From positions 476,501-540,500 of the forward strand of contig JAJGOT010000494.1 in NCBI GenBank assembly GCA_022457155.1: a stretch of 64,000 nt of DNA, given 5' to 3'. The translations under genes and the position numbers were made by a program. This DNA is from Cladopsammia gracilis (Eukaryota; Cnidaria; Anthozoa; Scleractinia; Dendrophylliidae). This document shows, one piece after another, positions 3,733-35,026 of this stretch; the first letter of the stretch is position 1, and each line of letters begins with the position of its first letter. The notes under the pieces were generated by a model that saw only the letters and a list, made by a program, of their open reading frames with translations, was not told where the DNA came from and ran no database searches.

Positions 3733-4408
3733 ATGCAGCCTCTCGATCCTATAACCTTGGCTCTCATTGCTGTCGCGGTAGCCATTGTATTGTCTGCACT
3801 CCTCTTACTTCTGTTTGCAACCCGCGAGGAAAAATTCGAGGATGTTCTAGCGGCCCAGCGTTCTGAACAAGAGGCTTATCTCGCGCGTACCGCTGCCGCA
3901 AAATCCACCAAACCACGCAAGAAGTTAAGCAAGGGTAAGAAGAAATACTCAGACGATGGAGAAGTTCTGGAAGACGTTCCCGAGCCTCTGGTCGAAGAAA
4001 CAATCGAGACGAGCGCTGATGTTGATGAGGACGACTTTCCCCCATCCGGTGAGTTTTCCAAAGATCCTGCAGGAGTTGTTGACGTGCCGAGCGAAGAGAA
4101 GATGCCTTTGGCTGAGGAAAAACCGAGCTCTGGGGCCGTGAAAGAACGCCATGGGAAAAAGAAGTCAAAGAAATCTGGCCCGAAGGAAATTTCCGTGACC
4201 GAACATGGAAGTTTCGACAAACCACGTGAAGATATGGAAGAGGTCGTGACTCAAATGGATTCTGTTCCCACGTTGGAAAGCGAGCCAGACAAGACCGAGG
4301 AACTCGAAATCGACGAGCAGAAATTTCCTGAGAGCAATGGAGCAGGGCCTTTAGCCAAGAAATCGAAGAGTAAAGCTAAAACAACCAAAGACAAGGGCCC
4401 TATTCAAG
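3733..4408 (+). other. Exon 1 of the RRBP1-like/annexin gene: membrane anchor and charged region
   Basis: This exon encodes residues 1-225 and ends in phase 1 before a GTCAGT donor. The first six residues are followed by a hydrophobic run ending LLLLLFATREEKFEDVL, which is the single signal-anchor arrangement of RRBP1 and kinectin, with the short N-terminus lumenal and the rest cytosolic. The next 190 residues alternate Lys-rich clusters (KPRKKLSKGKKK, KKKSKKSG) and acidic stretches. I see no tandem decapeptide ribosome-binding repeats like those of mammalian RRBP1, so in this part the protein looks more like kinectin. Reading through the donor adds about 26 residues and then a stop at 4477-4479, so a spliced exon is the better model. 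Confidence 0.85.
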
Positions 4409-7400
4409 GTCAGTGTAGTTTTGACTGTAACAAGTCGTATTATATTTCGAGGGTCGAGTTCCCAAAAGCTCTGATCTAAGCTTATGTGTATTTATAATAC
4501 AGAGCAGTGTTGAAAAAGAGCGGAACGATTTTTCCGTTGTTCAACCTTTTTAAGTGCCGGTCACACAACGGACGTAGCTTAAGCTTAAATTAAAGCATTC
4601 ATTGAAACGATCAATAGCACGAATTGAAATCAGAGTTGTACACTTCGGCGGATGAAAAAGTCAACGTGGCAATTTTGCTACTGCGGTAAATACCAGCGTT
4701 TTTTTCCCTGCTAGTTTGAAAATATATTAAAACGGAGGAAAATTGGCCAAACAATCGATCTGAAGATGTTAAATCGTTCACGAGAACTCGAGAAAGTCGA
4801 AATAATGTACTTTATAAACCGAGGAATAAATAGAATAAATTATTCAATGAAATCATGAGGTTGGAAGGATGTTTTGTTAGCAGTGAATATTTGTTGTAGT
4901 TTTAGGTGTCGTTTGTATATTAAAGAGAATTTGTTTGATAACACTGTACTAAAATTTGAGACAGAAAGTATTGATTTCGAAATCCGTCGACGATCTCTGG
5001 CTTTTAAAAGGCTCTTTATGTATAAATTTATCAAAACTGTATTTCCATATTAAATTAAGTTTTGTATATCCGCTATCCGAACCAGTCTTCTGGAACAAAC
5101 TTTTTCTATTTTACGAAATGCGATCTTTTCTTTTCTTTTTTTTTTTAGAAATGCGATTCAATGGAAAAGTCATTATATTTTCAATTTAATGACTTTATAA
5201 TATGTACCTGATTTACATATTGCTGTGGTATATTCAATGAATATTTTGTTTCCTGCGGTTGGTAAAGTGTACCAATGATACTGTGGTTGTGACATGTTCT
5301 AGTACCTATCCATAATCTGATAAGGCCCTTTAGAGGAATTTTTAAAATTAATTTAAATAATAATAACAATTAAATACTTATGATTTAAAAAGAAATCATT
5401 CAAAGATTTCCAAAAATAGTTAAAATAATATAAAAAAAGTCTATAAGTTATTATAACCACAATTTATAACCTCATTTTATAACCACATTTTATAAAATGT
5501 AAACATTAAATTTTTATTTTGACTGAATTTCCATGTTCTAGAATTATTTTATTTTGTTAAATATTTCTCATTTGATTTTTTTCTTGTTGTGTTAGAATAC
5601 CTGCTTACTAAACAACATGTTAATTAAATTTGGTCCAGAAAAGTCTATCTTTTTATATTTTTTTATCAAATCAAAACATTTTCAAAATTCTTGAGGCAAG
5701 CTGTTTATATCAGCAATGATTACATTATTTAAAAAGTTTCTATTGCTAAAAAGTCCATATTTGATTGTCGATGGGCAAAGCAAAAATTTAAGTGTTCTTG
5801 ATCTAATGAAAGGGCTCTGGATAAAAACATTCAAAGTGACATCTTGTCAGTTTGAGCTAAAATTGTGTGATTTGTAGCTTAAACTAGTATATGTGATAAA
5901 TAGTGATTGCTGTGGCGAATTGGGTGGAATCTGCTGGCTAATTGACCGCTTAATAAGATCGTTATATAATCAGCACTGTCCATGCCAACAGTTGGGTAGG
6001 GCAGAAACAACCTAATATAGTCCACCATCTACATGTTATCTAACAATTGGTTCATGCTTTAGTGTGCACTATTGAGTTATGGAGCACGCGGGAAGTTTGG
6101 AGAGCACGAAAGAAGCGTAAGAGTATCGCCTCGGGCAACTCTAGCTTCTTGAGTGCTCTCCAAACTTCCCACGTGCTCCATAACTCGATAGTGCACAGCT
6201 AAAAGCATGAACCAATTGTTTTATAACATAGCCAGTGGAATTGTGCATCAAATCTGACGCGAAAAACGGACAACAATATCAGAAGTGATTGTTCGTGGTA
6301 AGCGAAATATTAAGCAAAATAGGAATTGGTTTTATTTCAAATTTTCTGTTGAAAGCTCAAGTTTTATTTTACTGCAGTTCAAATACAAAATTCTTTATTT
6401 TTAAAAAAGAAATCACGGTCAAGAATGGCACTTTTATTTATCAGCGTGCACTATCGGGATTTTGAGCATGTTTACGTATACTGAATTTGATTGCGCGGCT
6501 CTGCTAGCTATGTTATAATTTGTCTTAAGCAATAAGCCACACTATTTTTACTACTTCCCAGTAAGCTGCAACATCCACAAATGTTTTGGCCACCTTCTGG
6601 GTTACGATTGTGATTCAGTGAGTATATTTCTGATGCATCATGTGGTACATTTGTCCATACCATGTGATGCATTTTTTTCATGTCACATGTTGGATTCAAA
6701 CACTTGGTAAAGGAAGTGTGGTCATGAATATAAAAAAACCTCATCATGGAGTACAGACAAATGTACCACATGACAAAGGAAGAACAGAAATGTCCCTTTG
6801 AACCACATTATTGTTCCAGAACTTTGAAATAAATAACGTTTTGTATAAAAAGTATTTAAAGTGTAAAGATGACTAATGTATTTGTTGTGTACATAGGTGA
6901 AGTGAGTACTAAACGTCTCATGGAAATGGTTACGTCTTCTACCCTTAACTCGTCTGAAATTCAAGCTATGATTGATGTGTTACTTAACAAACAAGGGGAA
7001 AATAGCCAGTGGAAGAAGGTAAGAATTTCTGAAAAATTGTTGTAATAATGCAGTGGAACTCCATTGTAACTCCATTGTAACGAAGGGACTGGGAAAGTGT
7101 GTTTGTTATAACAGGGGATCCTCATAAGCGAAACCTTGTTACAATGAATTTATGGGAAAATGACCAGTATGCCGCAACATTTGTAAACCATGCTGAAGAT
7201 CTTTTGTGTAACCCACACAAGTGCTGACTGGCTTATAACAGGGATTTTGTTACCATACATTTTACTGTAACTTTGGCCGGCTGAATAACATTGATCTTTC
7301 GTTATAAAGAGGTTTGTTATATTGGGGTAAACTGTAAATGATTAGAATTGTGCTATCTTGAACACAAGCTACATATCATGAACCTCTGCTATCTCCAGCA

Positions 7401-10400
7401 GGGTCAAGATTTAAATGTTTTACTGTATACAGAAGTGGTGGGGTGTTCTATAGAAGTCTGCAATTCACCAACTTTTAAACAGTCAGTTCTGTATTGCAAA
7501 ATTCTGACTCATCTGAAAACCAATCAGAATGCCGCACTTGATTATTGACCAGGCCCTGGTTGTTCAAAAGGTGGATAGCGCTATCCACCCGGTTAATCAC
7601 TATCCAGTGGATACTGTAAGTATTAACAAAGTCCATGTGTTATCCGCTGGATAGTAATTTATCCTATGGATAGCACTATCCACCTTTTGAATGACCCGGT
7701 CCAGTTTCCCAGATACAAAGTTATTGATTTCCTTTTCTCTTTACAGTCAACTTCTAAGGGTGATACTGTTGAATTACTCAAGAAACAGCTTCAGGAGAAG
7801 GATAATCAGATATTGGAAGGTGACTGATGATACTTTTAAAAATCTGTTGTAATCATCAGTTTATAATTTGTTAACTCGAACCCTCTTAATATGTGAACTT
7901 AATTCTTACTATCTAAAAGAAAACAATTTCCACCACTTAACTCTATTACTGCGATTTAACACCCAATATCCCAAAGTGTTTTGATATTCAAGTGTTGCGT
8001 GTATGGTCAACTGTCTTAAGACAGACACTCTTGTAAGGCGGACACCTCTCCAAGATGGATATCAATAAAGAGAGGCTGGTTTTGTGTGAAATTCACTTGT
8101 TTGCCTGTAACTAAACTCTCTATAAGGCGGATACCTCTTAGCTGGACAGCTAGATCTGTTCAGCTTAGACAGTGTTCATAATGATTCTACATGTAGTTTG
8201 GAAAAGTAAATTACTGGTATATGTGAAGGAGAACGTAACATGGCAAAAAGTCATAATTTTCAAGACATGCAAATCAGACACAGGTGTAGCTAAGAAAAGC
8301 GGGCTCATAAACAATCCCAGCCGGTTTTCTGGCTTGTGTTACCGTCAAAATCACCCCAAGTCTTTGTTTTCTAGTGAAATTTCAGTGGGTGATAAGTTCT
8401 TTTTCAGCCGGTGACATTAGCCGGTAGCCGGCTCTTAGCTACATCCCTGCAGACAGCATGAGAATTGCCTAGGATTGTTTTTATTTCTCAATTACAGCCT
8501 AATGGAAATTTCTTTTTTTTTCTTCATTATTCCCGTGATCTTAGCTACAGATACTGGTTGACTATAGTTCTGTGGTTATACGCATGGGATAGAGAAATCC
8601 ATCTGAATGTTATTTTGCAGAAGTTCCATTGCAGAGTGAACTTATGCCACGGAGCATTCATACAGTTATACAAAATAATTTTTGGAACAGTTTCAAGAGA
8701 CACATTGGTTTAATTTTTCCACTTGTCAGAAATTTCCTCAATTACATTCAGTCAGTTGATTTTTACACTTTGGATTTCATTCACAGACTAAAACCACCAT
8801 GAACAGTATAGTGAACAACCACACAGCACATAGACTACAAGTATCTTTCAGTTGTATGGCCACTCAGACTTTATGATTTCATTCACTGATCGACTTGAAA
8901 GTTCACCCTGTTTCATTCTTATGAGGAAGAGTTACATGTATACTTTTTTTCCAACTGCCAGACATAATTTATTAATATTGTTGCATCCTTGTTAGTCTAC
9001 ATAACAATTCCAAAACAACAATAAGTCAAACCAATATTACTAAACATTGACATTAAAGGTGTTTATTAAATTTTGTCCACTTAGAGCGCCAACAGTCTCA
9101 AAATGCTTCCAATAAGCTGAGGGAACTAAGGTAAGAACAATTTGCATGCTTCAAAAGTACTCAACTTAATTCTGGCATAACCCAGAAAACTTGTGAAGGC
9201 AGATTGATGTGTTATTATTAATTCACAACAGCATTGTTTCTTAAATACTTGGGTGGGTTGGGCATGAACCTTGAAGTGGGTTATGAGCTTAGCTCAGATT
9301 TTCTTGGGCTTCTATCTTATTTTAGTGCTGAAAAGTGAATCTGCTTGAATTGAATCCTTTGCTAAGAATTTTTGTCTTTTGTAGGGATGAACTTCAGCAG
9401 GAAAAACAAAAGCAGAAGCATCAACAAAGTAATGCTACCAACAAAATCAATGCTCAGGTAAAACACTCTTCTATATCACATGTTATTGTGCTCAGCAGTA
9501 ATCAGTGTTATATTTATTTTTATTGTCATTATGGACATTTCTACTGGGTGTCTTTTGTTACAGGGGTGAACAGAAATATGACATGAACAACTGAGATATT
9601 TAGTTGAACACAAGAAGAAAAATTTCCAAGAAGCTGTGTATTATTTTGTTTATTATATAAACCACACTAATTACTAATTTATTTATTTATTTTATTTTAT
9701 TTATTTTAATCAATTTTTAGACAGGATTGCCCATTCAGCTGAAGCTGGTTTAAGTGGAGCCCTGTTTAACAAAAACGTATTATGAAATACAGAGACAAGG
9801 CTAAATAAAATTACAGTTTATATGACTAATGCAAATAGATATGACTACAGATAGGAATTACTTATTCAGTATTTGTTGGGTGTGTCGGAAGTGCATCTTA
9901 AGCTTTGTTTTAAACATTCCAAATTCAGTTATATTCCTTAGGTTGGACGGCAGCATAGTCCATATTCTAGCCCCATTTATCCTAAAAGATCCTTGATATG
10001 TTTGTGTTTTTGTAAACGGTGGGCAGAGTAAATCTCTATTTCGAGTATTATATGAGTGTACTCTACTTGCATGGCGAAATTCATTGAGCAGGTATGCTGG
10101 AGCTAATCCATGTAAGCATTTAAGCACAAGCAGTGACAGCCAACTAAAGATATGCTTAAGTTCATGTGGTTCAATTTTACTCTGTTCAATTATTTTAGCA
10201 GCTCGTAACTTACATGTAAGTTTATCGGGATAGTCCAGATTTGTTTTTCCACAAGTACCCCAAATGATGGAACAATAATTTCCGATCATTTTTAGAAATT
10301 TTTCCGAAGATTGCCGAAGATATACAAAGATTTCTGAGGAAGGTTTGGAAATTTTTTATTGTAGACCAACACCTGTTAGCTCGTTTGACATTTAATAGGC

Positions 10401-13400
10401 GGCACCGTGAAGATATTGATATCTTCACTCTTCACAGTGAAGATAAAATTGTTATCTTCACATGTGTGGAGATGTGATTTTTCCGTGGTGGGAGAAATCC
10501 TTGTGATTGAATAAAAAATTTTATATCGTGTGCAAATATGTCTTTTTTTCTGCAGGCTAAGGAGATCCAAGCTCTCCAGGCACGAATGCAAGCTTCACAT
10601 GAAAACCATGCATTAGAACTGCAAAATATGCAGACTCAGATGCGGCAGATGCAAGAAGTTGTTGCATCATCTTCCATGGGCAGTCTGCAGCGCCTGCAGG
10701 ATGTAAGTACTACTTTTTTTTCATAAAATGCTTATGAATAAGTTTAAAGATCTTTAACCTCGATAACATGCTCATTAATTTTGTTTTCTGTATTGTAATT
10801 AGGAGAATTCGCAGTTGAAGAATGCTTCCATGAGAGCAGCACAGTTGTAAGTAATATATCAAACATGAGACACAGTGTTTCATCAAATTTCCAAACACTG
10901 CGAAGTGGGTTGAAAAACGAGGCGCAGCCAAGTTTTTTTTAACCCACTTCAAGGTGTTTGGAAATCTGATGAAAATACTGTGTCTTATGTTTGATATTAC
11001 TTCTCAAACAAAATTATTAAGGATGCAAAAATGAGGAGTGTTTCAACTGATTTCCAAACGCTCGTTAAACATTAATTTTCTTTGTATTTTCATCACGGAT
11101 TGTTAATGAGTTTGAGAAGTTTCAATCTTAATTATATGTGGGCTTTGCTATGATGTTGTTGTTATTGTGTGTTTGTGGCCTGATTAGTGTGTCTGACTTG
11201 TTTGAGTCTTATCAGGTATTATTGTTTGGCAATACAGTCAAACTCTTATTAAACAGTCACCTTTGGGGAATGGCTAATTGACCACTCAGTTCAGCACCAC
11301 TTAATACAGGGTGCTCATTTAATACAGGGCCACTTAATACAGGGTTCACTGTATTGATATGACTTCATACTGATACAAGATGAATGTTTATACTGCATTT
11401 GCATTGCATTTATGTGAAACTGGTTTGATTTTTGGTACTGGAGGAAGACTCTTTACCAAATGCACAGTTACAACTAGAGGAACAGGGAAGGCGTAGTCGT
11501 CATATTTGGGTTGCATTTGTTGTTGGTTCTTGACCTTGTTCCAAGGGTGTTTAATCTGGGTCCTCTGGTTTTTCCTCCATCCTCAAAGACCAACAATTCC
11601 AATTTTATATGGAATTTGAGGGCTACAGGTTTGTCATTTGAAAGACTGTTAGGTGTCACCCTCGTTAAACAAAGTTAATTTATTTATTTGATGTATATGT
11701 ATTTTTCAATAGGTATTTTTTTAACTAGGTAGTTTTTTCTATTAAAAAACAACAAGATAAAAGTACCCACCCCTCCAATAGAATGTCCATTTTTATTTGT
11801 TGTTACTCTTCAACTGTTATTCCCGTTTTTTGACCCTATTAACAATTTCCAACACCTTAACCCAAAGTTAACCCTAACCCCTACTCAAAGCTAACCATAA
11901 CCTTAACACAAAACTAACCATAACCCTAACACAAAGCTAACCATCACAGATAACCTAGGTTTTATGTCAAATAAAGAAACAGGTAAACTAGGTAAAAAAA
12001 AAAACTAGTTAAAAAATATTTCACTAGAACTTCAAAATTAGAAAAAAAGTTGCCTAGTGTAAAAAATTAACCTTGGCTTGTGAAAAAGTGTTGATGGTTA
12101 AACTTTCTCTACAGAACTGCAGATAAAGAATCACTCACATCAGAACTGACCAAGCTGCAGCAATCATATCGCCTTGTAAAGGGAGATTTGGCAAGCAAAA
12201 TAGAACAACTAACAAAGAGCGAGGCAAATCGTAAATCTTCTGAAGAAAAATTTAGACAGTTGAACATTCATCAGAACAGTGTGGTGAGAGAATATTTTTA
12301 CTTGCTCTCTAAACTTGTAAATTCTGAAGTGTTAGTCGTCGTGGGGTTAACAAAATTATAATCACAAATCGGCAAGAGAAACAGAAGGTATGTGATTCAG
12401 GATGATCGTCATGCACTCCATTTGAAACAATAGTAATTGTAATTGACAACAGTATAAAATACAAATGTTAAATGGGTTTTAAAGGGACTGTTTCATGCTA
12501 TGTGCACACCTGTACACATCTAACCATTGCTTGGCTAAGGTCATTTAAGATTCTAAAATAACAATTTGTTCAAATAAGTAAGGTACAGTTCTGTAGTAAA
12601 TGCTCCAAATATGGTACAGATGGCTTCCTTGTGAGGATGATTGAAATGGATAGCAGTTGCTGGTGCTAAAGATAACTTTTCCTTTGGACTGTAGGATAAA
12701 TTATTAACTTGCACAACATAGCATTGACTGTTCCCAATTTTATTATTTCAAAGAGTTTATTTGTGTTCCTTACTTATTTAATTTGTACAATTTGTTATTT
12801 TAGAATCTTTAATGACTTCAGGGAAGCAATGGAAAGGTTCTTGCAAGCATGTGCATAGCGTGAGTCATTGAAGAAGATAGGGGAATGGGAAAAGTAGTTG
12901 TGACCAAACAAGGCAGTGCTCAGAATTAATTTTTTCTAGCTGGGGTATTACCAGCTCCCAGCCCTTATTGACACTGTTGCATCTTGTAAAAATGCCTTAA
13001 TGCTTACATCAATATATTAAACTTTTCTTGTAGAAAGAGGCTGAGAATGCAATGTCAAAGCGACTGGCTGAAGTGAATGATGAACTGAACAAGTCCCAAG
13101 CGAAAAATGCTTCATTGCAAAAGGATCTGGAAGGTACTAAACAGATGCTCAAGACTGAAGAAACCAAATCAGCTGAGCTGGGTGAGCGTATTAAAGGATT
13201 GACAGCTGCAGACTCAAGTTTAAATTCCTTGACAGCTAAACTTCAGGAGGCAACTGCTAGAGTTTCTGAGTTGGAAAACACACTAACTGGGTTTGAAAAT
13301 CAACTGAAGGCTTCGCAAGAGAAACAGTTGCAAAAGGATAAGGAGATACAGGCAAGTTGAACCAAGACTTCTTTGCTTCTTCTTTACTATGCAGTATATG

Positions 13401-16400
13401 AGTCTGTATTGGTAAAGCTTGGTTTACACTAGTCACATAACGGTGAGGTCACGCAAACTTCTAGCGATGTTTTATGTCACCAGTGTGAACAACACAATAT
13501 AATGACATAAAAGCAACATAATAACATAAACATAACGACATAGGAAAAAACTTATCTTTTCTTTATTATGTCATTTTATATGTTGCAAGTGTGAACCAGG
13601 CTTTAAGTGTGTGGTTGCACAGTTAGTACAGGACTTAAATGGTGAGCACGTCCGACTTCTGACCTTAGGGTCAGTTGCCAAAGGGCCTGGTCTCTACTGC
13701 GATGTTCTTTCCTTAGACGATTTCTTCACATTGCCTATCCACCCAAGTGACAAAAAAGTCAAATACTTGGGGTACCCTGCTGAAGTAGACTTTTTCAATC
13801 CAAGGGGTTGGGGGGGGGGATATTAATGCTTTAGCTGCATGCACTTCATTACCATTTTTATTCCTGCAACCGAAACTCAGTTTTAATGGTAAGCAACAGC
13901 TATGTGTGCCTGTAGCCCAGGGCAAAGTGCAACTTGTTTAATAACACCCTTTTCATATCCAATTTAGGTCCTTCAAGAGGAACTTAGATTGTCAAAGGAG
14001 AAAGTGCAAACATCTGTTGCCAATCATGTGAATAGTGAACCACCAGCTGAAGTAAGTAAAATTACACGGTCATGTAGCAGCTCTCGTAAGGTCTCACACC
14101 ATTGGTTCGGAGAACAATAGAACAAACAACCCAACAATGGGCTCTAGACCTAAAAACAATAGAAGCTGTGTTTTACAAGGCCAATGAAAATAGAGGTTTT
14201 GGAGAGCTGCTACACTACTGAAATTACATGTTAACCCTTTAAGGCGGTGTTACACGCTGCAATTTTTTTGTGCAGCCAGTCTTGCAATGCCGTTGCATGA
14301 ACCATTGCAGCATGTAACACCCCCTGCAATGGTCAAAATTGTTGCAAGACAAGCTCTGCAATCATTGCAGAAAGTAGAATTGGGTTCTACTTTTCACAAT
14401 GATTGCGGCAACTTTTTTGAGCATTGCAACATGTAACACCTCCCTTGCAGCAAGTCACGCATGTTTTGGTTTTAAAACCCCTGTGTGCAGGTGTGACAAC
14501 CTTCTGTAGCAAGCTGCATGAAGATCAAAACATGATATGGTTTAACAACCCGGTTCCTGCAGCAGTAATGATCATCCAGCAGGTCTTGCAATGCTATTGT
14601 GAGACTTGCTGCACAAAAAATTGCAGCGTGTGACACCGCCCTTAATTCCCAACATCAAAATTCAACTTTTCCTTTGCTGTCCCCATACATTTATTATATC
14701 AGTTAAATTCAGGGAGAAGTTTTTAAAATGTCAGTAGTGTTCAACTTGTTATTTCCCCTTGTATTAAATATCAATGTTTAATCAATGAGAAAGGTATTAA
14801 GGATATGATTCTTGGTTGATCATATCCTTAATTCTCATAACCACTCCTATTGATTAAACATTGATATGACAAAGGAGAAATTTAATACTATGCACTGTTA
14901 ACATTTTATGTCCAATTTTAGAATGGAAAAGAACCTGAGGTGTCTCCCAAGGTCCAGGAAGATGTGTAAGTACTGTATAGTGGAACCCCGTTAATACGAT
15001 CACCTACGGGCCATGAAATTTTGGCCGTATTAACGGGGTAGGGTCAAATTTTATGACTGGTCTATGTTTCTTTTTCATAACAGGAAAGTAAATTGCTGTT
15101 TGATTATGTTAACGACAGAGGTCAATGACATGACAAGTTACAGGCGTTGTGAATAAATACAGTATTGTTTCTCAAGTAGTGTACAGTATTTGTTTTGTTT
15201 GGTCAATAATAAATGCATATTTGGTTCAAGTGGCCGTATTAATGGGGTAAAATTATAAAGGATTATACAGGTTGGGATTTCAGAATGTGGCTGTTGGCCG
15301 TATTAACGGGGTGGCCACATTAATGGGGTTTCATTATAAGAAAATGTATGGAAAATGTAAAGTGACCATAATAACGAGGTGACTGTATTAACACGGTGAC
15401 CGTTAGGCGGGGCTCCACTGTACTTGTGATTGGTGTGAAGTCATTTAATTTTATGGTAAACTTGTCAATATGACAGCTTATTTTTGCTGTTTCTTGGAAA
15501 TGTAGGTTGAAAGTTAAAGAGGATGTCATTGCTGAGTTGCATGGAAATGTGCTCAAGAAAGATGAAGAAATTGCCAGTCTTAAAAGCCTGTTGGATGAAC
15601 AGAAGAATAAGAATAATGTGAGTGAATTTGTCAAGGAATGCCTCCCTACATTCCCTTGTCTCCCTACCCCATGTGTGTGAACTTTGTGAGTCTTCATGAT
15701 CCGCGAAAATCAAATCATGTAAATATGAGTTGCTGCAACAAAAATTGGTGAAATTTTACTCCTTTTGTTTACATAACTGAATTTCAATTAAATTGACTGC
15801 AAACAATATTATGAACTTCTAAAACAAACAGTTTCTGTGGTCTCTGATAACAACTCATCTCTTGCTGAGGAACAAACAATGGATGGCTTTGAGTTGTAAT
15901 CAATGACTCATGACATGAACGCAGTAAATTAGTGCAACAAACATCCCCATGTTCTTATCCTAATTTCGTGTTGGTTGTCCTGTAGTTTATGTGCAGTAAA
16001 ATTTGAGGTTTTTTGGTGGCTGATCTTCCAAATTGCTGCCCCTATTGTATTTTCTCAGGGGCTCATTTCCGCCGGAAATTCCTTCAAACGCGTCTCCATA
16101 ATCTGTGATTACTGCTAGTATATATATACCAGTACAAAATGTGAAAGAGCCAACAGGAACTTGCTCAAGATCTGGAAAAATTTGTTCTTAACAGTAATGT
16201 CTGAAATCAAGGTTTGCAAAAATTTGTTTCATCAAAATGCAAAATGCAAAAAAAAAAAAATCAGCAACCCGTGAAATTCAGCTGTGCCATGGTTGTTATT
16301 TTGTAACTGATTGATGTTCTAGTAAATCCCCACTCAGTCCCTTTCACGAAACAGTTACATGTAGATAACCTGTTTCCATCTCCTTGCATTACGGTGGTCT

Positions 16401-19400: not shown

Positions 19401-22400
19401 GTTTTACGCAACAAAATACTCCACGATTCTTGCAGTAATTTGGCAGCCTTGTCCAGAGTTTCTACGCCTGCCCCTAATATCAAAATATAAATTCTCATTT
19501 CTTGTCCCTACACATTTCCCATAAAAGTAGTGGGGAGAAATTGTTTATATATCAAGAGAATTCATCTTGTGTGATCATGTCCTTAATTCTCATGACCTTT
19601 TTGATTGATAAGGCATTGATATTACAAGGAGAAATTTGATGTTGATCACTCTTAGGGCTTAAAGGGTTAAAGGTGGAGAAGCCTGTGGGGACGAGGTTGA
19701 GGGTGTATTTTTGTGGGATTTGTAGTTACAAATGGTGATTTTTTCTTGTTTTTGCCTGCATTAGGAGTTACGTGAGAAGAACTGGAAGGCAATGGATGCA
19801 CTCTCAGAAATGGAGAAAAATGTGAATAAGAAAGTGAAGAGTGCTGTAGAGAAAGTCAAGGTAACATTCACCTCACCTTTCTGAACTTGTCCACTTTCAA
19901 GGCATCACTCCCAATCTACCCTCTTTCTCTACCCCCCACCCCCCACCCCCATAGAACCTGGCCCCCCACCCACCCACCCCTTCACCTCCCCAAAATGACC
20001 CTCATCAACCTGGGTGTATCCTCCACTGCACCATCATTTATCAAAGTATTACTTCATGTTCCAAATGACCCTTGGACAGTGTAACATTTTTACATGATAG
20101 CTGTAGCTGGAAGACCAATCATTAGCAGAATAACAAGAATTGCACATTTTTGTTATATTCACAACTGCATGCAGTCCTTGACTTCTCTCTTCTTCGGGAG
20201 AAATTAAATTATTTATTTATTTATTGTGTTTTACAGGATGAAAACAAGACACAATTAATAGAAGAGCAAAATGCAACAAAGGTAATGATAAAACCTTTCT
20301 TCTTGAACATGTTTTGTTCTAAATTAATAACTACCAAAATTCATGTTGTTAATTGGTGCTGTTTTGTCTACAGAATGCTCTATGTAGAATACACCCTAAT
20401 GTCACAGTAGATGCCACTATGGTGAGTCAAACACTCGTGAACATTTTTTTAATTTAGCCCAATTATCAGTCAGATGATATTATTCGTCTTAATTATATAA
20501 AAATCATTCATGTAATTGCAAAGTATGTGAACTCAGGTGCAAATTTGTGCGTTTTATAAATTTCTGCACATCTTTTGAGAAGTGAATGTTATTCTCTGTT
20601 GTTGTTGTTGTTGTTTTTTTTTTGCCAATGTTGTGTTTTGTTTATTATCTAGCCATACAAGAGTTGGCTTGGTGAATTTGAGAAGCAAGCATCAGAAGCT
20701 TCCAATGATTCTAAAGAGGTTAGTACATAATGAATGGAAGAAAAATGACATTGTTCTTTACTTTTTGTGAAGCCCATGCACAATTAACTGCAATCCCCAT
20801 GCTGTGGTTTTTGTAAAGAAAAATATTAGAACCTGATGTTGAAGGATTTTGGAGATTGGTAGAAAACTGAGCTTAAAAAGCTTGACCCTTTAACTTCCAA
20901 GAATGCCAAAAATGATAATTTCATTGAAAGGAATGTTAAAAACCAAATTGTAGCATGCAAAAGTACTGCTGAAGATGTTTCATTTCAATGGTCACACGAT
21001 AGGATTTTGTCAACAGACTGAAAAGTTAGAACTACATTACATGTGTCCATAAATGACTGGTTGAATATTTCCAGTAAGTCATTTGATCTTTTTATCTCTT
21101 AGTTGGAAGAACTCACTGCAAAGTTTGAGGAAGTTCAAGCACAGAAAGACCACTTAACTGCTGAATGTGCGCACTACAAAGTTACACTCCAAGAAACGGT
21201 CAGTAGAGAGGTTACTTGATCATACTCCTTAGTGCTCAGGTTGAGTGGGTGATGATTTGAGATGATGGGATGTTTTTACCTAACAAGGCCAAACCATGCC
21301 TTTCAAGTGTTAAGGGCCTGTTAGGGAGGGTTGGGGATGCATGTCTTTAGTCCAAATTTCAAACATTGTCATTGTCAATATTGTGAGGTTTCACAATTAG
21401 ATGTGAGATTTTTATGCACTACTATGCTGAAAGTTCACAATTTCACGCAATCTTCTTGTTGTTCATTGTCATTTCATTTCACTGATGTCACTGTTTTGAC
21501 ACCATTTGAGCTGTCAGAATTTATCCATTGTTTATTGCCTGTCATCAGTTTACTTTCTTGCCTATCGCTGACTTATTCTAACTTATTGTTTACTGTTTGT
21601 CATCAGGAGTCATTACTTAGAAAACTGGAAGACAATGTTGAGTCAGAAATGGACAACTGGCAAAAAATTGTGGAAAGAACCCAAAGAGAACTTAAAGAGG
21701 TATTATTACAGTACACAGAGGAGTGTACCATGATTTTTTATTTTATCTGTAGGTACTAAGATATTTTTTACAGCGGCTAAAAGTTGAATTGGAATGAAGT
21801 GTCGTCAGTTTGCAGTGCTGATTGGACAATTTTTTAATCAGACAGATAATTTGCTACTCCATAAACTTTAGGGAGGCTGTGCACCAGCTTTTGACACTAG
21901 GCTTTCTGGGATAGATTGGGCAACCAGCGATAGGTTAGCTCGTTATTGGTATCCAAACGATCCCAGACATCTCAGTGCTGAAAGCTGTGCTCATTCAGCC
22001 CAAAGTTTCTGAAGGGGCAAGTTAATCTTAACAAAATCAATAACAAAGAGCAGCATTGTTAAATGGTCAGTGGTAATAGCTTTCTGGGGCATGCTGAGGC
22101 AGGACATTGTTTCAACATTGAAGCATGTATATTTTAATGTGGTCCTCTGTATATCCACTTATAGAATATTTGGTTGTGTTTTGTTGCAGGCTAATGACAG
22201 AATATCTTCATTGGAAGAAGATCTTCAAAAAGCAAAAGGCTCAGCTTCTTCACAGTTGGATACAGTGGCTTCATTAGAGGAACGACTTAAACAGGCTCAA
22301 GACGCTGAGAATGAGGCAAAGCAGAGGTTTATTGAATTACAGGAGCAGCTAGCAAAATCAACTGTGTCAGTCGAAGATGCAAATAAAATCAAAGAACTTG

Positions 22401-24926
22401 AGAAAGAACTTGAAGTTCTTAGATCACAAGAGAAGGAACTCGCTGATACAATTTCAAAATTAGAATCTACAGAGCAAGACATGATCAAGTGTAAGAAACA
22501 ATTAGAAAATGCAGCAAAAGAATTAGCTGATCGTGACAGCGAATTGAAGACATCAAAAACTGAACTTGTTAAAGCACAGGGAGCAGAGGACGAACTAAAG
22601 AAAAAGGTGGTGTCACTTGAGGAAGCTCTTGCCAAGGCTAATAATGACTTAGGAAAGTCACAGGTTTGTACTTGAGGGTGCATGTTATTTTGTGTCATTA
22701 AAAACTTTGAAGAGAGTTCTTTTACCGGCAAATAGAAACCTAAGTACATTTTAAACTCCACTAACTCCCACCTCCCTACAATAGCCAGAACATTTTGTCC
22801 AGAGATAGCTGTTACAGCACTGAAAATAATTTTCCTTACTTAGGAGATGCATCTTTTCAAACCTTTATTTTGATAGGGCATTTTACAAAATTGGTTGGAC
22901 ATCCATCATTTCAGATTTTTTTTTTTTGAGACACAATCTGTTAGCATACATGACATTGTGCAGTTTGCAATGCATTATAGGGCAATTTCAAATCCCACTG
23001 CTGTTTTTAATTTTCTTTAATCAAGAGAGCCTTTTATACAAAATAAACTTAAAATATCATCAATAGTAATCAATTCTTATATTTTTATGTTTATGGAATC
23101 AAAATAATTATGTAGTGGCTAAACAATACTTTTTTTTCTTAAACAAGACTTTCAATACAAAAGCCAAACCATTTTTGGACTTGGAAACCTAAATGTACTG
23201 TAAAATAAGTCAGCCGTTTTAGGATTTGGTCGGACAACGTCCAACGACTGACTATTATTTCCAGCACAGCCGTTGTAGAGAGGTTTTTGGCAGCAAGAGG
23301 TTTGACTGCAATTCACAGGGTTCGGACTATACTGCAAGTAGCTGTGAAAATTGTTTTGTATATTGTTGCCTTGACATAAATAAAGAGTTTAACCTATATG
23401 TAAGTTTGATAACTTAATGACATAAAGTCAGTGACCCACTTACTTTGTTAACATTATGCATGATTTTCACATTATTTTAATGCTGTATTCCTTAATTAAA
23501 ATTTTCTCCAAGATTTAAATTACTGTTAAATTCTATAGAATAACATTGCAACACTTTCTTTTAATACAGTTGTCTGTAAAATAAGATGCTTTTAAGAGTA
23601 AATTGTGTATGACACTTTAATTAAATAACTCTTAATTGTTAAACAATAAATCCAAATGTAGGAGTCACTTGACAGCTTAAATAGCAGTCCTGAGAAGAAA
23701 AAGAAGGGCTTAAAAGGGGCATTCACTAAAGTTAAATCTAAGGTTTGTACCTTTTAGTTGTAATTACATTATTGAAATAGTAAAATTGATTAAACCAAAA
23801 TAATGAACTTTAAAGTTAATTTTTGCTTGTTTGCTCTTGTCTTCTTAATTAATTTTGACCAATGTTTAAAGGTGCATCTATAAATCTTCATTTAACTCCC
23901 TTATATTTCTAATCTAATTTTGATCATTGAATTACATTGCTAAATTAAAATGCTGATATTGTAATATAATGTATTGTTCTTCATAAGTGATGATAATAAA
24001 AATTAGGTGTCCTGTTTGGTGTCATGTAGAGTTCATAATTAATTTAGATATCAAATGGGAAATAAACAGTATGTACCAGTGTGAATGGTGGTATGGTGAA
24101 AAGTGCATGCTCAAGACAAACTGAACACAGTTTACTTTCATTAATACTTTGTATCTTTAGTACCATACAATTGACACTTGACATACATGGGTACGAATCC
24201 CATGGGGGACTGAGATGTTTTCCTTTGAAGTCCTGCGTGCCTAAGACAAACTGAACACAGTTTACCAATACTTTATTATCGACTGTGATGTCATTTTACC
24301 TTATAAGGGAAAGAGAACACATAAAAATATCAGAGCATATTACACTGTACATTGCCGTATTACACCTTAGCATCCCAGTTTCAAGACACAAGCTATTATA
24401 AATATAAGAATAATAAATCTCATATTCGATGGTTTAACAGGTAATACCTGCCAACATTTTACTCATTGTTCGCATTTTTTCTCGCCCCTGCGGGACCCAA
24501 AAAAATACTATGTAACTTGTAAAATATCTGCACATATTATCTGTTAACCCATCAAATAAGGTGTATTTATTACATGACTTAGTGCAGCATTCATCATCTG
24601 TCTCTTTATTTCCATACAATTGACATTACAAATCCCAGGATTTTAGAGTCACTTGAACAAAAGAAAAATATTGTAGTACTGTTCCAGTGATTCTCATTCC
24701 ACAGCTAGTGTGACCAATGCCTTCTTATTTTTAATCCAATTAATTATTTCTTGACAGAAAGATAAAGAGAAAGATGACAAACAGCTAGAAGAGGTGAGGT
24801 GGCATTAAACATTACTATATGTTGTACAGTTCAGTAGCAAAATAACTCAATTACCACCACAAGGTTAACTTAGTTGGTGGAATACTGGTCTGCAGAGTGG
24901 GAGGTCGCGGGTTCGATCCCGGCCAC

Positions 24927-24958
<32 letters not shown>

Positions 24959-27900
24959 TGAAGGTGCTGCCTTTGCTATGATATCTGCAAATGGTTAGAC
25001 CTTCACGCGGCTCGGATGACCATTTAGAAATGGCAGTCCTGACTCCAGTAGGGGACGTAACCGCAGTGTCCTCATTAAGTTCTTTCGTGCTAAATACATT
25101 GAAACAAAATGATATTTTAATTAACTGTTGTGTTCCTTTAGGCTCAGCGCAAGATCTCTCAGCAGCAAACTGAAATTGATGTAAGTTTGAGGTTACACAC
25201 TCTATTTTGTCTTTAAATGGTTGACTTGAAGTAACATAATCAACAAATTCTTGTTTTATAGGACCTTAAGAATGCTAGAGAGCAGCTAGAAAAACAAAAC
25301 AAAGCCTTGGAAGTTGAATACACAGAGTTGAAGAGAAGGTCTATTTCTGTAGAAGCTGTAAGTACTGTCACTCACTCAAACTTTCCATGAGAACATAAAT
25401 GCCAGTAGGATTGAGGTCTGGCTTTTAGCGAGAAGTTGACAACCTGTCCGTTGATGAAGTGTGAAATCTTCATTATTATAGGAGAATAGATGTTTACTTA
25501 TTTATCATCTATTGTTGTTATTGTCTCACAGGAAATGACGAAATCCCAACAGATAGAAAAAGACATGGCCGAAGCCATAAATGATGTAAGTAAATTTTTT
25601 GAGTTGGAGAATGAAAAGAGAAAAACAGAAAAAAGATCCCTCCCCATTTTCAGCCTTGATATATTTTCATGTCCCAAACCATTGTTTTATTCACAGACAA
25701 ATGCTACACACAGTTAAAGAAAGTTAATTTGAAATGCAATTAAACTCGGAACCATTGCCGTGGTACTTATCTAAGTTCCTTAGCTGGTCAGCGGTTGTCC
25801 GCCATCAAGTCACGTGGTGTGGAGATTTTTGTTGTTGTTGTTGTTGTTTGTTGTTGTGGTCCAGGTGCCTTTGCAGGAGTGATTTCAGCTTTCCCTTGTT
25901 CAGCTTGCTCGCTTGCTGTTGTTAATTTGTTATGCAATAAACAAATACAAACAATTTGGTAAAGCTTGCTACCAGCCAAAACGTTATAACCAGTTTACAA
26001 AATAGAATTTTATACTTTTAAGATCAAGAACTAAACAGTTACTTTGATAAAACCCAAGATTGTAATCTTAACATTTAATGTTAAAAAGTTTTAACGCAAG
26101 TTAGAGATGCTGATGGTGTGATATAATGTGGTGGCAAAAAGAGAGGCGAAAACTCATCTGAGTTCAATGCGATCACTTTCGTAAAGTCACATGCTTTTAA
26201 AATGCTGTTCTCTTGTTAATCAGTCACAAGCTTCCTGAATTTCTACCAATGTTTCTGTCATAAAAAATCTCTGCATCTTTAGCCAGCAGCTAAAGTATAA
26301 AACTTGGTCATTTAAAAGCTAGGTATTAAATGCTTATATTGTAACCACTTGTCCTGTTAACCCTGACATCTTTTTCAAAATTCTTAATTATTGTATGATA
26401 TAAATGGAATGAAAAACCGGTAACTGTTTGTCCTGTGTTAAATAATAATTGTTTTTCAGCCTTTTTAAATTGATTGTTACTGACTGAGAACAAAGAACAT
26501 AAAAATTGACCTGTTTGGACTCGCTTATTTGTGTGAAATAATAGTGAACAAATTAAATCTAAGTAATGCATACGTTTAATGTTTAACAGACTGCGGTAAG
26601 CCCCGTGAAGCCCCGTGTTCTCCCCAGTGAACGGAAAGTAAGTAAAGCCGGCTGGCTGAAACACTCACACATAGTCATACACACACTGCCTTGTCAAGCC
26701 ATCTGCTTTAAATATGGTGTAAAAACACCTGGGGCATTTCCCTACATGTTATATGTAACTCGTTCTGAAACGGTGATTAAAATTTGTGAATTCCTTGTCT
26801 AAATTCCATTGCTTGCTTTTGCAAGTGTACTAATATCAGCCATTTTGCATCATACTGTAGCATTTACTTACGTAGCATGATTCTCAGCTGGTTCAAGGTC
26901 ACTCCATGGTCAAACCATGGTCAGATGAGGTCAAAAACAAGCCCTCAAACAAGGCACGTCAGACGGGGAAAGAAGGGGCAGTATGTAGCTCTTACAAAGT
27001 CTTCTCTGGTTTGCTGAGAAAACAATAGAACAAATAACACAACAATGGACCCCAGCCCTGAAAGCAATAGAGCTGTGTGACACCCAGGTCCAATGAAATA
27101 AGAGGTTAAGAGCTGCGTGGTATTTGGAGAGGAGGGAGGGGTGAGTGCGAGGGACTTTGGACCATCTGAGAATCAGGCTATCACTAACATGGCTAAATCC
27201 TCTTTGCTCTTTACAGAACAAGTTGTTCGTGGTTTGTATTTCAACACAGTGGCATTTGCTTCCTTGCAGCAATTTTCAGCACTTGTAGTCCCGAAGATAA
27301 ACAGAGTTCTATTTTTTGGTGAGGGATTTTAAAACTTATGCTTGGTGGTTTTTGTTTTATTTTCTTTCTTGATAGCCCGAGCCTGAGTTCCATGGAACAC
27401 TAAAGCCAGCAGATAATTTTAACCCTGAAAAAGATGCGGAGGCATTGAGGAAAGCCATGCAAGGATCTGGTAAGATAAGATGTTCTTTGGAGAGGAGGAT
27501 GACAAGCTTGAAGGGCACAGATGTCCAGAAATACAGGCAGAGGGGGGTCACACTTCTCCATGACTGGCATCACAAAGTGTCCTCACCTTTTAAAGTTCAC
27601 CAAAATACACAAAATTCTGTCACTTATGAAGTAATATGAAAACGACAAACTACTCTCGCAAATACGAAGTACTTGTTAAACAATACTTGTCTGCATTTCT
27701 GGAACTGTTATTTATATCCACATGTTCTTCTGACATCTGAGCTTTGGGCTCCTGAGAATTTGATAGACATCCACCTTGGGAAGTGATGTAAACTGAAATG
27801 TCTCACTTGGAGAACCCTGAACTTGAATATTAATTATACAAACTTTATATTCTAGACAAACAGCTCACTCAAAGTTCACTTACAAATAGCTAGCATTTCC

Positions 27901-30900
27901 TCTTTGAAAATGTCAACATACAAAAGCTTGACTTCGTTAATTCTGGCACCAAGTCATCAAGAAGAGCTGATCTCAAGATAGAAATTCTCTTCTAGTTTGT
28001 TGAGAATTTTATGCAGACTAGTTAGGAGAATTCATGTTTTCATATTAGTATGTACTTACATGAACTAACATATCAGGTTGTACTTAATTAACTTTGTATC
28101 CTTCCTGTCTACCCACAGGAAGTGACAAAGATGCCATTGTGGCAATTCTTGGAGCTCGCACTAACAAACAGCGACAGGAGATTGCTGCTAAATATCAACA
28201 AAAATATGGCAAGGTAACATATCTTATTGTTATTTTAACCTGCATAGCAGGTGCCAGTTAATTTATAGGGTGAAATTTTAAAGACGTGAAATTTCACCTC
28301 TAAGTAAGCGGGCGTATGATACACTGGCATGTTATTTTGGAAGCTGGAATTAAATGCCATTTGAAGTTTGGTAGAATGATTTGTCCATGTTTTGTATTCC
28401 TAATTTTGATTTTGCAATGCTTGGTTGTAAAAGTGTCCAATCTGTTTTGTAGACCCTCACTGATGACTTAAAATCAGAGCTGAGTGGAAAGTTTGAAGAT
28501 GCCATGGTTGGGTTGGTGATGGCTCCAGAATCCTATGATGCTGTCTCACTTCACGACGCTATGTCTGTAAGTTCTTCCAGCAGAAATGGCTAACACAGTT
28601 TTCTTCTCACTAGGCCTGTGTGCTTGACCAGTAATAAATTACATCCATGCTCCGTCACGCGTGACCAGTAATTTTGAGAATGAAACGAACATTTAAATAT
28701 TTCTTTGTAACGTCCGAGATTTGAATGAAACCTTGCAGATCTCTGTTGAAAACACTTTGAAAGTCACGAATTAACGGAAAATAACTTCGCTGCATGCATA
28801 AAAAACCTAATATTGTTCGGATATATAACATTTCAAACAAAATGATATTTTGTTGCCCTTTGTTTCCAAAATGCGGTAAAGTTCTCACGGGAATTCCGAA
28901 TCTCGGAATGAATTTTCAAAACCGACGCGTAATCTTGAAAACTCCATTCAATTTTTAAAAATACTGGTCACGCGTGACGGAGCATGGCTGTAAATGGTGA
29001 AGTTTCAACTTTCAGTCAAACAATCTGCTATGATAGTAAATTCCCTGCAAGTTGCTCTATAACCTTTCAATGTCTTCCAAGGTCAGTGGGCAGATCTACA
29101 AGAGCCTCCCCCCCCCCTCCCCCCACCCCCAATCTTGGAAAAAATTAGGTCCCAACGGCCAAAAAAGGTCTCTGTCTCCAACATTTTCACCCTGCCTCCC
29201 TCCCCCCTCCTTATTCATCCAGGGGTGGGGGGGGGGGGTTATATGATGACCCGCCACTGAAGGTTTACAGTTGTTGCACAGAGCAGATATTGATGCTAAC
29301 AGCTATTATTTTTCAAACTAAAGAAACATGATATAGTTACATCTATGTGAATAGTGATGCGTTTTCCGTAGCTCGTATTTTGAAAGAAGTCGCGTTCTGC
29401 ACTATTTTAAAATTTAAGCAGTGTACCATATACTGTAGTTGCTTAGCTAAATTTGAATTTCTTTCCTTGATTTACAGGGAATTGGAACTGATGAACAAGT
29501 TCTTGTAGAGATTTTAAGTTCACGCAGTTATGAGGTGAGTTTCCTTGTGTGTAAATTAAAATAGAAAAGTGTTTGCTTATAGTTCAGGATAATAAACAGC
29601 ACCACAGGAAAGTACTGTTCAATAGCTTTCATTTAAATGGTCACAGTTTAGGATTTCATCAACAGACTCAAAAGTTAGAATCACCTTGTAGAGCATAATA
29701 AACATTACCACAGGAAAGTACTGCTCAGTAGCTTTCATTTGAATGGTCACAGTTTAGGATTTCATCAACAGACTCAAAAGTTAGAATCACCTTGTAGAGC
29801 ATAATAAACAGTACCACAGGAAGGTACTGCTCAGTAGCTTTCATTTGAATGGTCACAGTTTAGGATTTCATCAACAGACTCAAAAGTTAGAATCAATCAG
29901 TCAACTCTTTCATTATTATACTAATTATACATTGTTGTTGTTGTTTCTTGTTGAATAAATTGTTGTTGTTGTTGCTCTGAAAGAATCACCTTGTAGAGCA
30001 TAATAAACATTACCACAGGAAAGTACTGCTCAGTAGCTTTCATTTGAATGGTCACAGTTTAGGATTTCATCAACAGACTCAAAAGTTAGAACCACTTTGT
30101 ACAGCATAATTAACAGCACCACCGGAAAGTACTGTTCAATAGCTTTCATTTGAATGGTCACACTTTAGGATTTTATCCACAGACGCAAAAGTTAGAACCA
30201 CCTTGTACAGCATAATAAACAGCACCACTGGAAAGTACTGCTCAGTAGATTCACTTGAATGGTCATACTGTAGGATTTTATCCACAAAATCAAAAGTTAG
30301 AACCACCTTGTACAGCATAATAAACAGTACCACAGGAAAATACTGCTCAATAGCTTTCATTTGAATGGTCACACTTTAGGATTTCATCCACAGACTCAAA
30401 AGTTAGAACCACCTTGTACAGCATAATAAACAGTACCACAGGAAAGTACTGCTCAATAACTTTCATTTGAATGGTCACACTTTAGGATTTCATCCACAGA
30501 CTCAAAAGTTAGAACCACCTTGTACAGCATAATAAACAGTACCACAGGAAAGTACTGCTCAATAGCTTACATTTGAATGGTCACACTTTAGGATTTCATC
30601 CACAGATTCAAAAGTTAGAACCACCTTGTACAACACAATAAGTAGCACAACTGGAAAGTACTGCTAAGTAGCTTTCATTTTAATGGTCACACTTCATCCA
30701 CAGACTCAAACTTTAAGTTAGGAATATAAGAATTTACGAACGAACAAACTTAAAGGTCATGTTTTAATTTTTTGACAGGAAATCCAAGACATAAAGTCTG
30801 CTTACACACAAAGTAAGTGGTTAAGTTTTTAATCTGAATTTCCTTGTGCATGTGTTACTCTCATTTTGTTTGTTTACTGATTCACAAACAATTTAATGCT

Positions 30901-33900
30901 TGTCATTTCTGTTTAGTTTATAGTGGAAAAGATGTTGTTAAAAAACTCAAAGAAGATACCGGTGGAGAGTTCCGAACCACTCTAATGAACTTGATGGAGG
31001 TATGAACTGTACATTGTGTCAACTGTCAAAATTTTGTAAGCTTTCCACGATTAATCTCAGCAGAATGGATATCACTGGAGAATCAATTCCAGAAGTCACG
31101 AGTTCGATTCTCGCCAGGGTCAAAGATTTTTTTTATTGCTGGTTTCCCAATATCCTTTCTTTTCTTTTACGCTTAGTAGTTTTGTGGGTTTATTCCTTCT
31201 TAGCACTCTCGTATACGCTTAAAATGTCATTTAGATTTATTCAGGTGATCGCTATGTTTACATCCAAGTCCCCTAATGACATCTGTTGTGAAGTTAATTT
31301 CATGAAGACAACCTTCAAGCTTTTTGATAGCGTGTTTAGTGTTGATTTTTTTGTTTTTATCTCACAGAAAAAACGCGATAGCTCAGATGAGGTTAACACG
31401 GACCTCGCTAAAGATGATGCTAAAAAACTTTTTGAGGTTGGTGTGTTTTACAACTATCTACACCCATTCTGCAAGAACTACCTTTATGGAAGGCTTCGTG
31501 GCCTGAAAAGGACGATGGACTTGTAATTCGGAGGTCACTGGCTTACGTCCTTCTCTCTGCAATGAATGTCCGAATAATTGCTTAAAATGCCCACTTTTGG
31601 TGTAAAGCTGTTTTCTTCTATGATAAAAGTTGATTCCCATAAATGTTTGTATGAAGGCTAAATATCTAAGAATCTCGCAGTAGTAACGGACATTGTTTTG
31701 CCATACTGTCAGTACAGGCCAAAATTCTTTGGAATTCAAGTTAGTTTTAATCTTTGAACTATAATATTGACGTAACTGTTGAGTTTTCGTTGTACTTCCA
31801 GGCTGGAGAAGGGAAAAAGGGAACTGACAAAGCAGTTTTTGTTGAAATTCTAACAGCACGAAGCTACGCACAACTACGAGCCACCTTTGACGCCTACAAA
31901 ACTGTAAGTATTTCAAAGTAGCACCATTATAAAGTCTCAGTTTGCGGAGTGATATTTTTGAAATTCTTGCCTACCAGAATTGAGAATAAACCTTGTGACA
32001 CTTGAGTGCTTTTCAATTGAGTGTCAAAAGTCATTTCGCTATTGCTTTGGTTTTGCATTACTATACTTTGTGATTGGCTAAAAAATCTCGCGCCACTATC
32101 TCAGCCAATCAGAAGTAAAACCAAAACCAATCGTGACTTGGTAGCACGCGTTTTCCCGCGCTTGGCGCCGGCTACATGTATTTGAACTATTTGCTACGAG
32201 TTCTGATTGGTTCATTTGATTGTCTGCATCTGTTGTGATTGGCCACTTTTACCTGTACGACACTGGCCTTAACAGTTTTTGTTTCCCCGAGACCCTGAAT
32301 ACTCCAGAGGCAAATACCTCCCAAATTAAAAAAATAAATAAATAAATAAAAAGCAGCGACGTTCAAAAAAGCGGTGAAGTTCAAGCGACTCTAACGAGAA
32401 CTTCAAAAAGGTTCAGGCTGGATTGCAGAATTCCCGGTCCACTTATATTTGCATCTCATTGAATAACGAGAGTGCCTATTGTTATTTGCCTCTTTCTGCA
32501 TAGCGTACCGACACATGTAAATGAATGGGCCGGGTATTCTGCAATCGCCCCAAAGTTTAATCAGGGAAATATTAGCAGAACAACAGTTTTGCTCGCGCGT
32601 TGATATGTTTAATTAGCGAATCAACAGTTTTACACGAACAAAGCAACAGTTATACACTTGCCTTCAAAATTAATTAGCAAAACAACTTTTTACATGCGTT
32701 TTAAGTCTAATTTGCAAGAATAACAATTTTGCACGCAAGTTAGTAAGTTTAATGAGTATTTATAAGTTTTGGTACACTTTTCAGTTGCCAAATCTGTGTA
32801 ATTGCAACACAGTATTTCTGTGAACTTCACAGGTCGCCAAAAAGGATATTATAGACTACATCAACGATCAGCTAAGTGGGGACTTGCGCACTGCATTGAA
32901 GGCGATAGGTAAGTTTATACACTCTTGTTTTTGTTCTGTTATACAGTCGAACCTCCGCTAACGGACACCTCCCGTAGGCGGACACCTCCCATAAGCGGAC
33001 ACTTAGTCGTTGTCCCAGCCACATACAAACACTACATTTTTAACCTCCCATAAGCGGACACCTCTCTTTAACAGACACTTTTTCTGGTCCCGAAGGTGTC
33101 CGTTTACGGGAGGTTCGACTGTACGTTGTTTCGCTTTTCCTATTACACCTGTTATTCCTCTTATGTGCCGTTTTTTGACAGAAAAGGTGACCACTTCATA
33201 TACCTTCCAAAGAAAATGATACCCCTTTTCATATACCTACAGTAGAACATTGCATCCCTTTACTATATCCTAGGAAGTACAAGGTATTTAAATGACAGTT
33301 TTCCTTACTCTTTTCCATAGTTCAACTCGTGAAATCCCTTCCCTTTTATATGCCTCCAACCTGGAACCTCCCAGTATAGTCCATTATAGGGAGTCCCTCC
33401 CTCTCCCCTCCAATCCCCCCTCCCCTCCCCCACGGGACTTGTGTATCTTTTTCGCCAACACGTAACAAATATACCGCAATACACCCGCGACATTTCCCAA
33501 GGTATTGAATTGTGATGTACACTTGTGTGTTTCAGTTCGCTGCGCAGAGAGCCCTCCTCTGTATTTTGCTGAAGTGTTGGAAAGAGCTCTGGACAAATCA
33601 AACAGCAAGACGGTCACTCGTGTTATGGTGACGAGAGCAGAGGTGAGTAGCTGGGCTGTCGAGCCAGTAAAGTAAGGTTAACATTATTTAGTATATACTG
33701 AAACAGTGGATAGCATTGTTGGCGCGCTCTGATTGGCTACTGAAACTCGGAATAGATTTTTGGATATTTACCTCGCCGCTTCGCGTCTCGGTAAATATCC
33801 ACCACTACCCACCTCCACTTCGGTGAATAGTTGTTAATTATAACTGTTAAACTGTAAGTTACAAACCTGGACAACACTTCTAACGAACTAATCAAAACTA

Positions 33901-35026: not shown

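Follow-up and report, generated by a model that had tools for sequence, protein, structure and literature searches.

The window analysed here is a stretch of 64,000 nucleotides from the stony coral Cladopsammia gracilis. Its main feature is a gene on the plus strand (3733-35026) that, in the final model, consists of 39 exons and 1460 codons with a single terminal stop. The encoded product of 1459 residues comprises a membrane anchor, a coiled-coil rod of the RRBP1/kinectin type, a linker and a complete four-repeat annexin. The features of the window are as follows.

3733..4408, plus strand, exon 1: start codon ATG, the membrane anchor at the N-terminus and the greater part of the lysine-rich cytosolic region
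6897-7018, 7747-7819, plus strand, exons 2-3: end of the lysine-rich region and start of the rod
9085-9130, 9385-9457, 10556-10702, 10803-10846, 12115-12283, plus strand, exons 4-8: rod
13034..13351, plus strand, exon 9: rod, followed by a GC donor
13968-14051, 14922-14965, plus strand, exons 10-11: rod and a proline-containing break
15506-15617, 17746-17841, plus strand, exons 12-13: first copy of the signature unit (KNWKAMEAL)
18235-18272, 18792-18903, 19765-19860, plus strand, exons 14-16: second copy of the signature unit (KNWKAMDAL)
20237-20281, 20374-20421, 20653-20718, 21103-21198, 21607-21699, plus strand, exons 17-21: conserved kinectin/RRBP1 rod segment
22190..22663, plus strand, exon 22: heptad-rich rod segment of 158 residues (867-1024)
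23662..23742, plus strand, exon 23: lysine-rich cassette ESLDSLNSSPEKKKKGLKGAFTKVKSK
24758-24793, 25142-25180, 25262-25357, plus strand, exons 24-26: linker coiled coil
25532..25585, plus strand, exon 27: EMTKSQQIEKDMAEAIND, the last stretch common to all Nematostella isoforms seen, with two in-frame Met
26590..26637, plus strand, exon 28: TAVSPVKPRVLPSERK, the 16 residues ahead of the annexin
27376-27469, 28119-28213, 28453-28566, plus strand, exons 29-31: annexin repeat 1, with loop GSGSD (1172-1176) and E1214
29478-29534, 30779-30812, 30917-30999, plus strand, exons 32-34: annexin repeat 2, with GIGTDE (1244-1249) and D1287
31368-31436, 31802-31903, 32833-32908, plus strand, exons 35-37: annexin repeat 3, in which the loop is kept and the acidic ligand is replaced (Q1371)
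33536-33642, 34904-35026, plus strand, exons 38-39: annexin repeat 4 with a shortened loop, and the stop codon
16819-17155 and 19167-19671: pairs of inverted repeats within introns, 73-122 bases in length and with 93-97% complementarity
29582-30821: a 106-base unit repeated in tandem within intron 32, which separates two annexin exons
39885-53410, minus strand: Sel1-repeat gene, with a Sel1 Pfam match at 39888-40487 and more open frames reaching as far as 53410
40567-40638, plus strand: tRNA gene (Rfam, 47.6 bits)
55554-60373, plus strand: gene with an uninterrupted frame of 864 codons holding Stealth CR1 and CR2, two LNR stretches and a DMAP-binding domain, and with Stealth CR3 in the next frame

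The Sel1-repeat gene is presumably SEL1L-like; three other open frames of this gene that were tested gave no Pfam match. The gene at 55554-60373 is one that we take to be GNPTAB-like. The intronic inverted-repeat pairs look like small non-autonomous transposons.

The main gene was rebuilt by a splice-site and codon-usage search, with both ends fixed at the coordinates of an original prediction made from the sequence, and then by reading. With four different intron penalties, the search alone gave 42, 39, 36 and 34 exons, and its settings disagreed on exons 23, 28, 33 and 34; reading supplied exon 18, the longer version of exon 9 and the beginning of exon 10. The exon 38 acceptor at 33548 was rejected in favour of 33536 from the alignment with relatives, and the queries in the main protein searches and the Pfam scan come from the model with the former acceptor, which is four residues short. 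Candidate exons at 7399, 7553, 19241, 19656 and 26876, proposed under some search settings, were dropped for weak signals and for the lack of a counterpart in the aligned relatives. Apart from the ends, which were taken over, the rebuilt model arrives at the same 39 exons and 1460 codons in one frame as the original prediction, whose figures were known when the gene was rebuilt. The introns are GT-AG in 37 of 38 cases and GC-AG in one, the GC donor (CAG/gcaagt) lying after exon 9 at window 13351-13352. Every intron after exons 15 to 28 is in phase 0, in line with what had been said of the linker exons 24758-26637. When a Porites lobata protein is used in a tblastn search, 35 of the 39 exons are matched; exons 4, 11, 14 and 24, all short, gave no match. 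The original prediction also held that a separate annexin gene would have no visible start. This stands for exons 23-26, which contain no ATG, but not for exon 27, which has in-frame Met codons at 25535 and 25565, and an internal start there is conceivable. The in-frame TAG ahead of exon 29 is part of the acceptor of that exon.

The N-terminus contains one strong hydrophobic segment at about residues 6-28, with a peak 19-residue hydropathy of 3.17 at residue 9 vs 0.73 for the best stretch elsewhere. Residues 61-266 contain 30 lysines, and the rod comprises residues 267-1126. According to a simple periodicity score devised for this analysis, the heptad z is at least 1.6 in every 100-residue block from 301 to 1100, with values of 8.8 for residues 801-900, the maximum, and 7.4 for 901-1000, against -0.8 to 0.8 in the other blocks. 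A straight rod of 860 residues is computed to span about 128 nm. No Pfam family matches the rod above the cut-off, and no solved structure matches its Nematostella counterpart P0091. An HMM of the anthozoan N-termini, in contrast to the best of 168 reversed or shuffled decoys (E 0.83), reaches a best E of 3.9e-9; it matches the N-termini of 49 of 84 RRBP1/kinectin proteins and leaves the other 35 unmatched. These 84 proteins, bilaterian where named, make up the best 120 of 945 matches to the rod signature together with 34 fused proteins and two Nematostella proteins; bilaterian RRBP1/kinectin is matched from E 3.6e-21 downwards. Hydropathy, HMM matches and rod-signature matches thus support the N-terminal membrane anchor and RRBP1/kinectin-type coiled coil that had been proposed, and by homology we infer a location in the ER with the rod facing the cytosol.

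Kinectin (KTN1) and RRBP1/p180 share with the window protein the N-terminal membrane anchor and the long coiled coil with the KNW-AM signature. They differ in that no annexin is present in the Pfam column of any of the 84 other RRBP1/kinectin proteins within the best 120 of 945 matches, all 84 of which have a single copy of the KNWKAM unit, as do some isoforms. The window protein and Nematostella P0091 each have two copies; either the unit was duplicated in the cnidarian line, or bilaterians lost a copy. The window protein, P0013, P0014 and Nematostella P0091 all lack a match to the ribosome receptor lysine/proline region (PF05104) at an E of up to 0.01, and this region is also absent from the annotation of the Mytilus relatives among the matches listed. 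The window protein is therefore classed as an RRBP1/kinectin homologue and not as a p180-type ribosome receptor. p180 is described as a membrane-anchored protein with a short end in the lumen and a kinesin-1-binding coiled coil (PMC8302662), and as having a decapeptide repeat domain (PMC12491259). The three motifs tested for these ribosome-binding repeats do not occur in the window protein. One review calls the origin of p180 vertebrate-specific and the protein absent from most invertebrates (PMC12491259). The presence of the predicted anchor and rod in the window and in Nematostella shows that the wider RRBP1/kinectin family is older than that.

Behind the rod, the linker varies between relatives. 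The motif spanning the join of exons 25 and 26 is found in all 34 fused proteins, and those of exons 23, 27 and 28 in only some of them (16, 19 and 13 of the 34, respectively), which means that the linker undergoes alternative splicing. The exon 23 motif is additionally present in Nematostella, and exon 24 is absent in P0070. In the AlphaFold2 model of P0177, a relative that is a coral by its sequence, the homologue of exon 28 (131-147) is of low confidence and predicted to be disordered. The model as a whole consists of two long helices, this low-confidence stretch and the annexin, with a mean pLDDT of 87.5 and a pTM of 0.66.

The annexin core is complete, as predicted, with four stretches of PF00191 (E 1.3e-73). 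A fold search superimposes the P0177 model on annexin III at 1.4 A over 315 columns, with a TM of 0.93 of the target. The calcium sites were judged by the type II ligand motif of annexins. In repeat 1, the acid E1214 is identical in all 34 fused proteins (alignment columns), and the first and second glycines are kept in 32 and 33 of them; the odd rows are P0063 and P0070, two gene models that are irregular where the annexin begins. The ligand positions of repeat 2 (G, G, T and D1287) are identical throughout the 34. Repeat 3 keeps the loop glycine in 34/34 and the threonine in 33/34, but its acid position is Q, K, H or Y in every fused protein vs E in 5/5 of the multi-annexin gene described below. 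In repeat 4 the acid position is a lysine in 34/34, and in those of the 34 aligned rows that were read, the loop is two residues shorter. The calcium sites of repeats 1 and 2 hence look intact and those of repeats 3 and 4 look lost. Annexins bind acidic phospholipids at raised calcium (PMC10882027). With the acidic ligands of two repeats absent, the calcium affinity may be low.

The fusion is not confined to the window. A whole-protein query scored on the annexin alone, a design that lets only long proteins answer, returned 90 proteins of 855-2496 residues, most of the relatives being database predictions. Anchor, rod, linker and annexin occur in one chain in 34 of them, with motifs and ends checked in all 34. 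Thirty-two come from Oculina, Porites, Montipora, Acropora, Pocillopora and Stylophora; the remaining two, P0015 and P0034, sit on contigs of 6588 and 5729 bases. Since the coding exons of the window spread over 31 kb, these two are probably spliced transcripts. Among the other 56 are multi-annexin genes, bacterial proteins and molluscan proteins of the annexin A6 type; the anchor is matched by none of the 56, and the rod by several, weakly (19-23% identity) as is usual for coiled coils. The Desmophyllum model is truncated at its 5' end but includes the end of the rod, the linker and the annexin, and for Orbicella only a multi-annexin protein, P0011, turned up. Of the eight named stony-coral genera encountered, seven thereby show the fusion, with Orbicella as the exception. 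The combination of anchor, coiled coil and annexin, which the original prediction proposed to look for in other cnidarian proteins, is consequently present in stony corals. In public databases the fused proteins go by names such as 'uncharacterized', 'ribosome-binding protein 1-like', 'kinectin-like', 'myosin-4-like' or 'Annexin'.

A query with exons 27-39 gave 73 proteins at E 1e-60 or better. Only four of them exceed 60% identity: P0177, P0178 and P0179, whose sequences begin within the rod, and P0180, a fragment of 279 residues that begins inside repeat 1 and comes from a contig of 1052 bases. Apart from this fragment, no separate annexin-only product is found among the 73 matches. P0183, a short annexin of Acropora digitifera, was rejected as such a product, having 55% identity and grouping with the multi-annexin domains, and so was P0182 (58% identity), which resembles these domains. 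With 34 fused proteins and Nematostella proteins that end at the fusion point, the in-frame fusion of the anchored rod and an annexin is regarded as virtually certain.

The two Nematostella proteins, P0091 and P0092, named ribosome-binding protein 1, come from a rod gene without an annexin. Like the window gene, they have the orthologous rod through exon 27 (P0091 in alignment), but they end where the coral protein goes on. P0091 then has a different short end, and P0092, compared by eye, continues with TANSPVKPTAASKH and a stop. Exon 28 (TAVSPVKPRVLPSERK) resembles, also by eye, this end of P0092 (TANSPVKPTAASKH), and the window gene proceeds by splicing into the annexin. Exon 28 therefore looks like the old rod end minus its stop, and judged from these protein ends, the stop of the rod looks to have been lost. 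From one anemone and the bilaterians, it would be the corals that gained the fusion rather than Nematostella that lost the annexin; Exaiptasia, corallimorpharians, octocorals and hydrozoans do not appear by name among the best 120 of 945 rod matches, and the lower-ranking matches may include more cnidarian orthologues that lack the annexin.

Outside the fused proteins, the annexin most similar to the head is the final domain of a multi-annexin gene (P0001-P0008), which is present in corals and Nematostella and encodes several annexins in a row in 1645-2323 residues, along with other precomputed Pfam matches. Its proteins differ from the fused ones by this arrangement and by having no match to the anchor. 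The head is 59-62% identical to the last domain in corals and P0007, 69% over 117 residues in Orbicella P0011 and 50% in Nematostella, vs 32-39% for the remaining near-complete domains in the coral multi-annexin proteins. A tree of 26 rows places the seven fused annexins in a single clade (100/100), and together with five last domains of the multi-annexin gene they form a clade with 100/99 support; the window annexin groups weakly with Porites (83/75). Rod and multi-annexin proteins are found on contigs that are equally long in Oculina, Montipora foliosa, Stylophora and Nematostella, which indicates that the two genes are probably linked. The simplest account would be a local duplication of the last annexin domain followed by its capture. 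The last rod stretch would have lost its stop and been joined by splicing to a duplicate of the final domain from the linked multi-annexin gene.

The best explanation overall, and a fairly probable one, is a long ER-anchored tether with a calcium-controlled annexin head that arose by annexin capture. The N-terminus would anchor the 1459-residue protein in the ER membrane, with the coiled-coil rod facing the cytosol. Upon a rise in cytosolic calcium, the annexin head would bind acidic lipids of another membrane and tie the ER to it, and the alternative linker exons would set the charge and flexibility near the head. That the protein functions in trans, between the ER and another membrane, is given slightly better than even chances. 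Ordinary membrane contact sites are narrower than about 128 nm, which counts against the tether, and a straight rod of that length suits long-range capture better than tight contact. More tentatively, with chances a little short of even, stony corals may have evolved a covalent, calcium-gated, long-range ER tether, composed of a golgin-like rod and an annexin head derived from annexin capture at the lost stop, whose head captures acidic membranes such as the plasma membrane, the endosome or the symbiosome. Golgins and EEA1 are likewise long coiled coils with membrane attachment at both ends, but they have no annexin head and belong to other organelles. Annexin A1 is reported as a tether of ER-endosome contacts (PMC4906250) and would resemble the window protein in that an annexin ties the ER to another membrane; it differs in working with S100A11 and without a covalent ER anchor. 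A trans tether is disfavoured by the two lost calcium sites and by the knock-down of P180 in neurons, after which ER-lysosome contacts were reportedly not evidently reduced (PMC8302662).

Another explanation, held to be unlikely, is that the annexin head acts in cis, binding its own ER membrane or a facing sheet of rough ER, and thereby sets the spacing of the sheets or keeps the rod masked as long as calcium is low. Acidic lipids are scarce on the cytosolic side of the ER, which counts against such binding in cis, given that they are the ligands of annexins. This lipid preference is documented in PMC10882027. The proline-containing breaks in the rod and the predicted disorder ahead of the head in P0177 would fit the cis arrangement, as would the shaping of ER membranes by p180 over-expression (PMC12491259). 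A somewhat less likely possibility is that the annexin serves as a calcium-independent, protein-binding cap, for which the fold alone matters. The replacement of the acidic ligands in repeats 3 and 4 of all 34 fused proteins agrees with this, but the same 34 keep those of repeats 1 and 2. An erroneous joining of two adjacent genes, or an occasional read-through, is very improbable and was rejected: the exon 27 Met codons could start an annexin-only product, most database proteins are predictions and P0180 is an annexin-only fragment, but 34 proteins agree on the fusion with no full annexin-only product found among the 73 matches, both parts lie on each of the two transcript-like contigs, and the in-frame Met of exon 29 falls within annexin repeat 1.

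The gene represents a fusion with a visible before-state, as the anemone protein stops where the coral protein continues. Its single chain also combines an ER-type rod with a calcium module that binds membranes. No paper on this domain order was listed in searches of an open-access full-text library, with subscription papers and preprints outside its scope, and to that extent the expectation that no such protein has been described stands. In the anemone Aiptasia, phosphorylation of rrbp1 is reported to be higher in symbiotic animals (PMC6972648). As a matter of speculation, the coral protein may have roles in calcium signalling, skeleton secretion or symbiosis.
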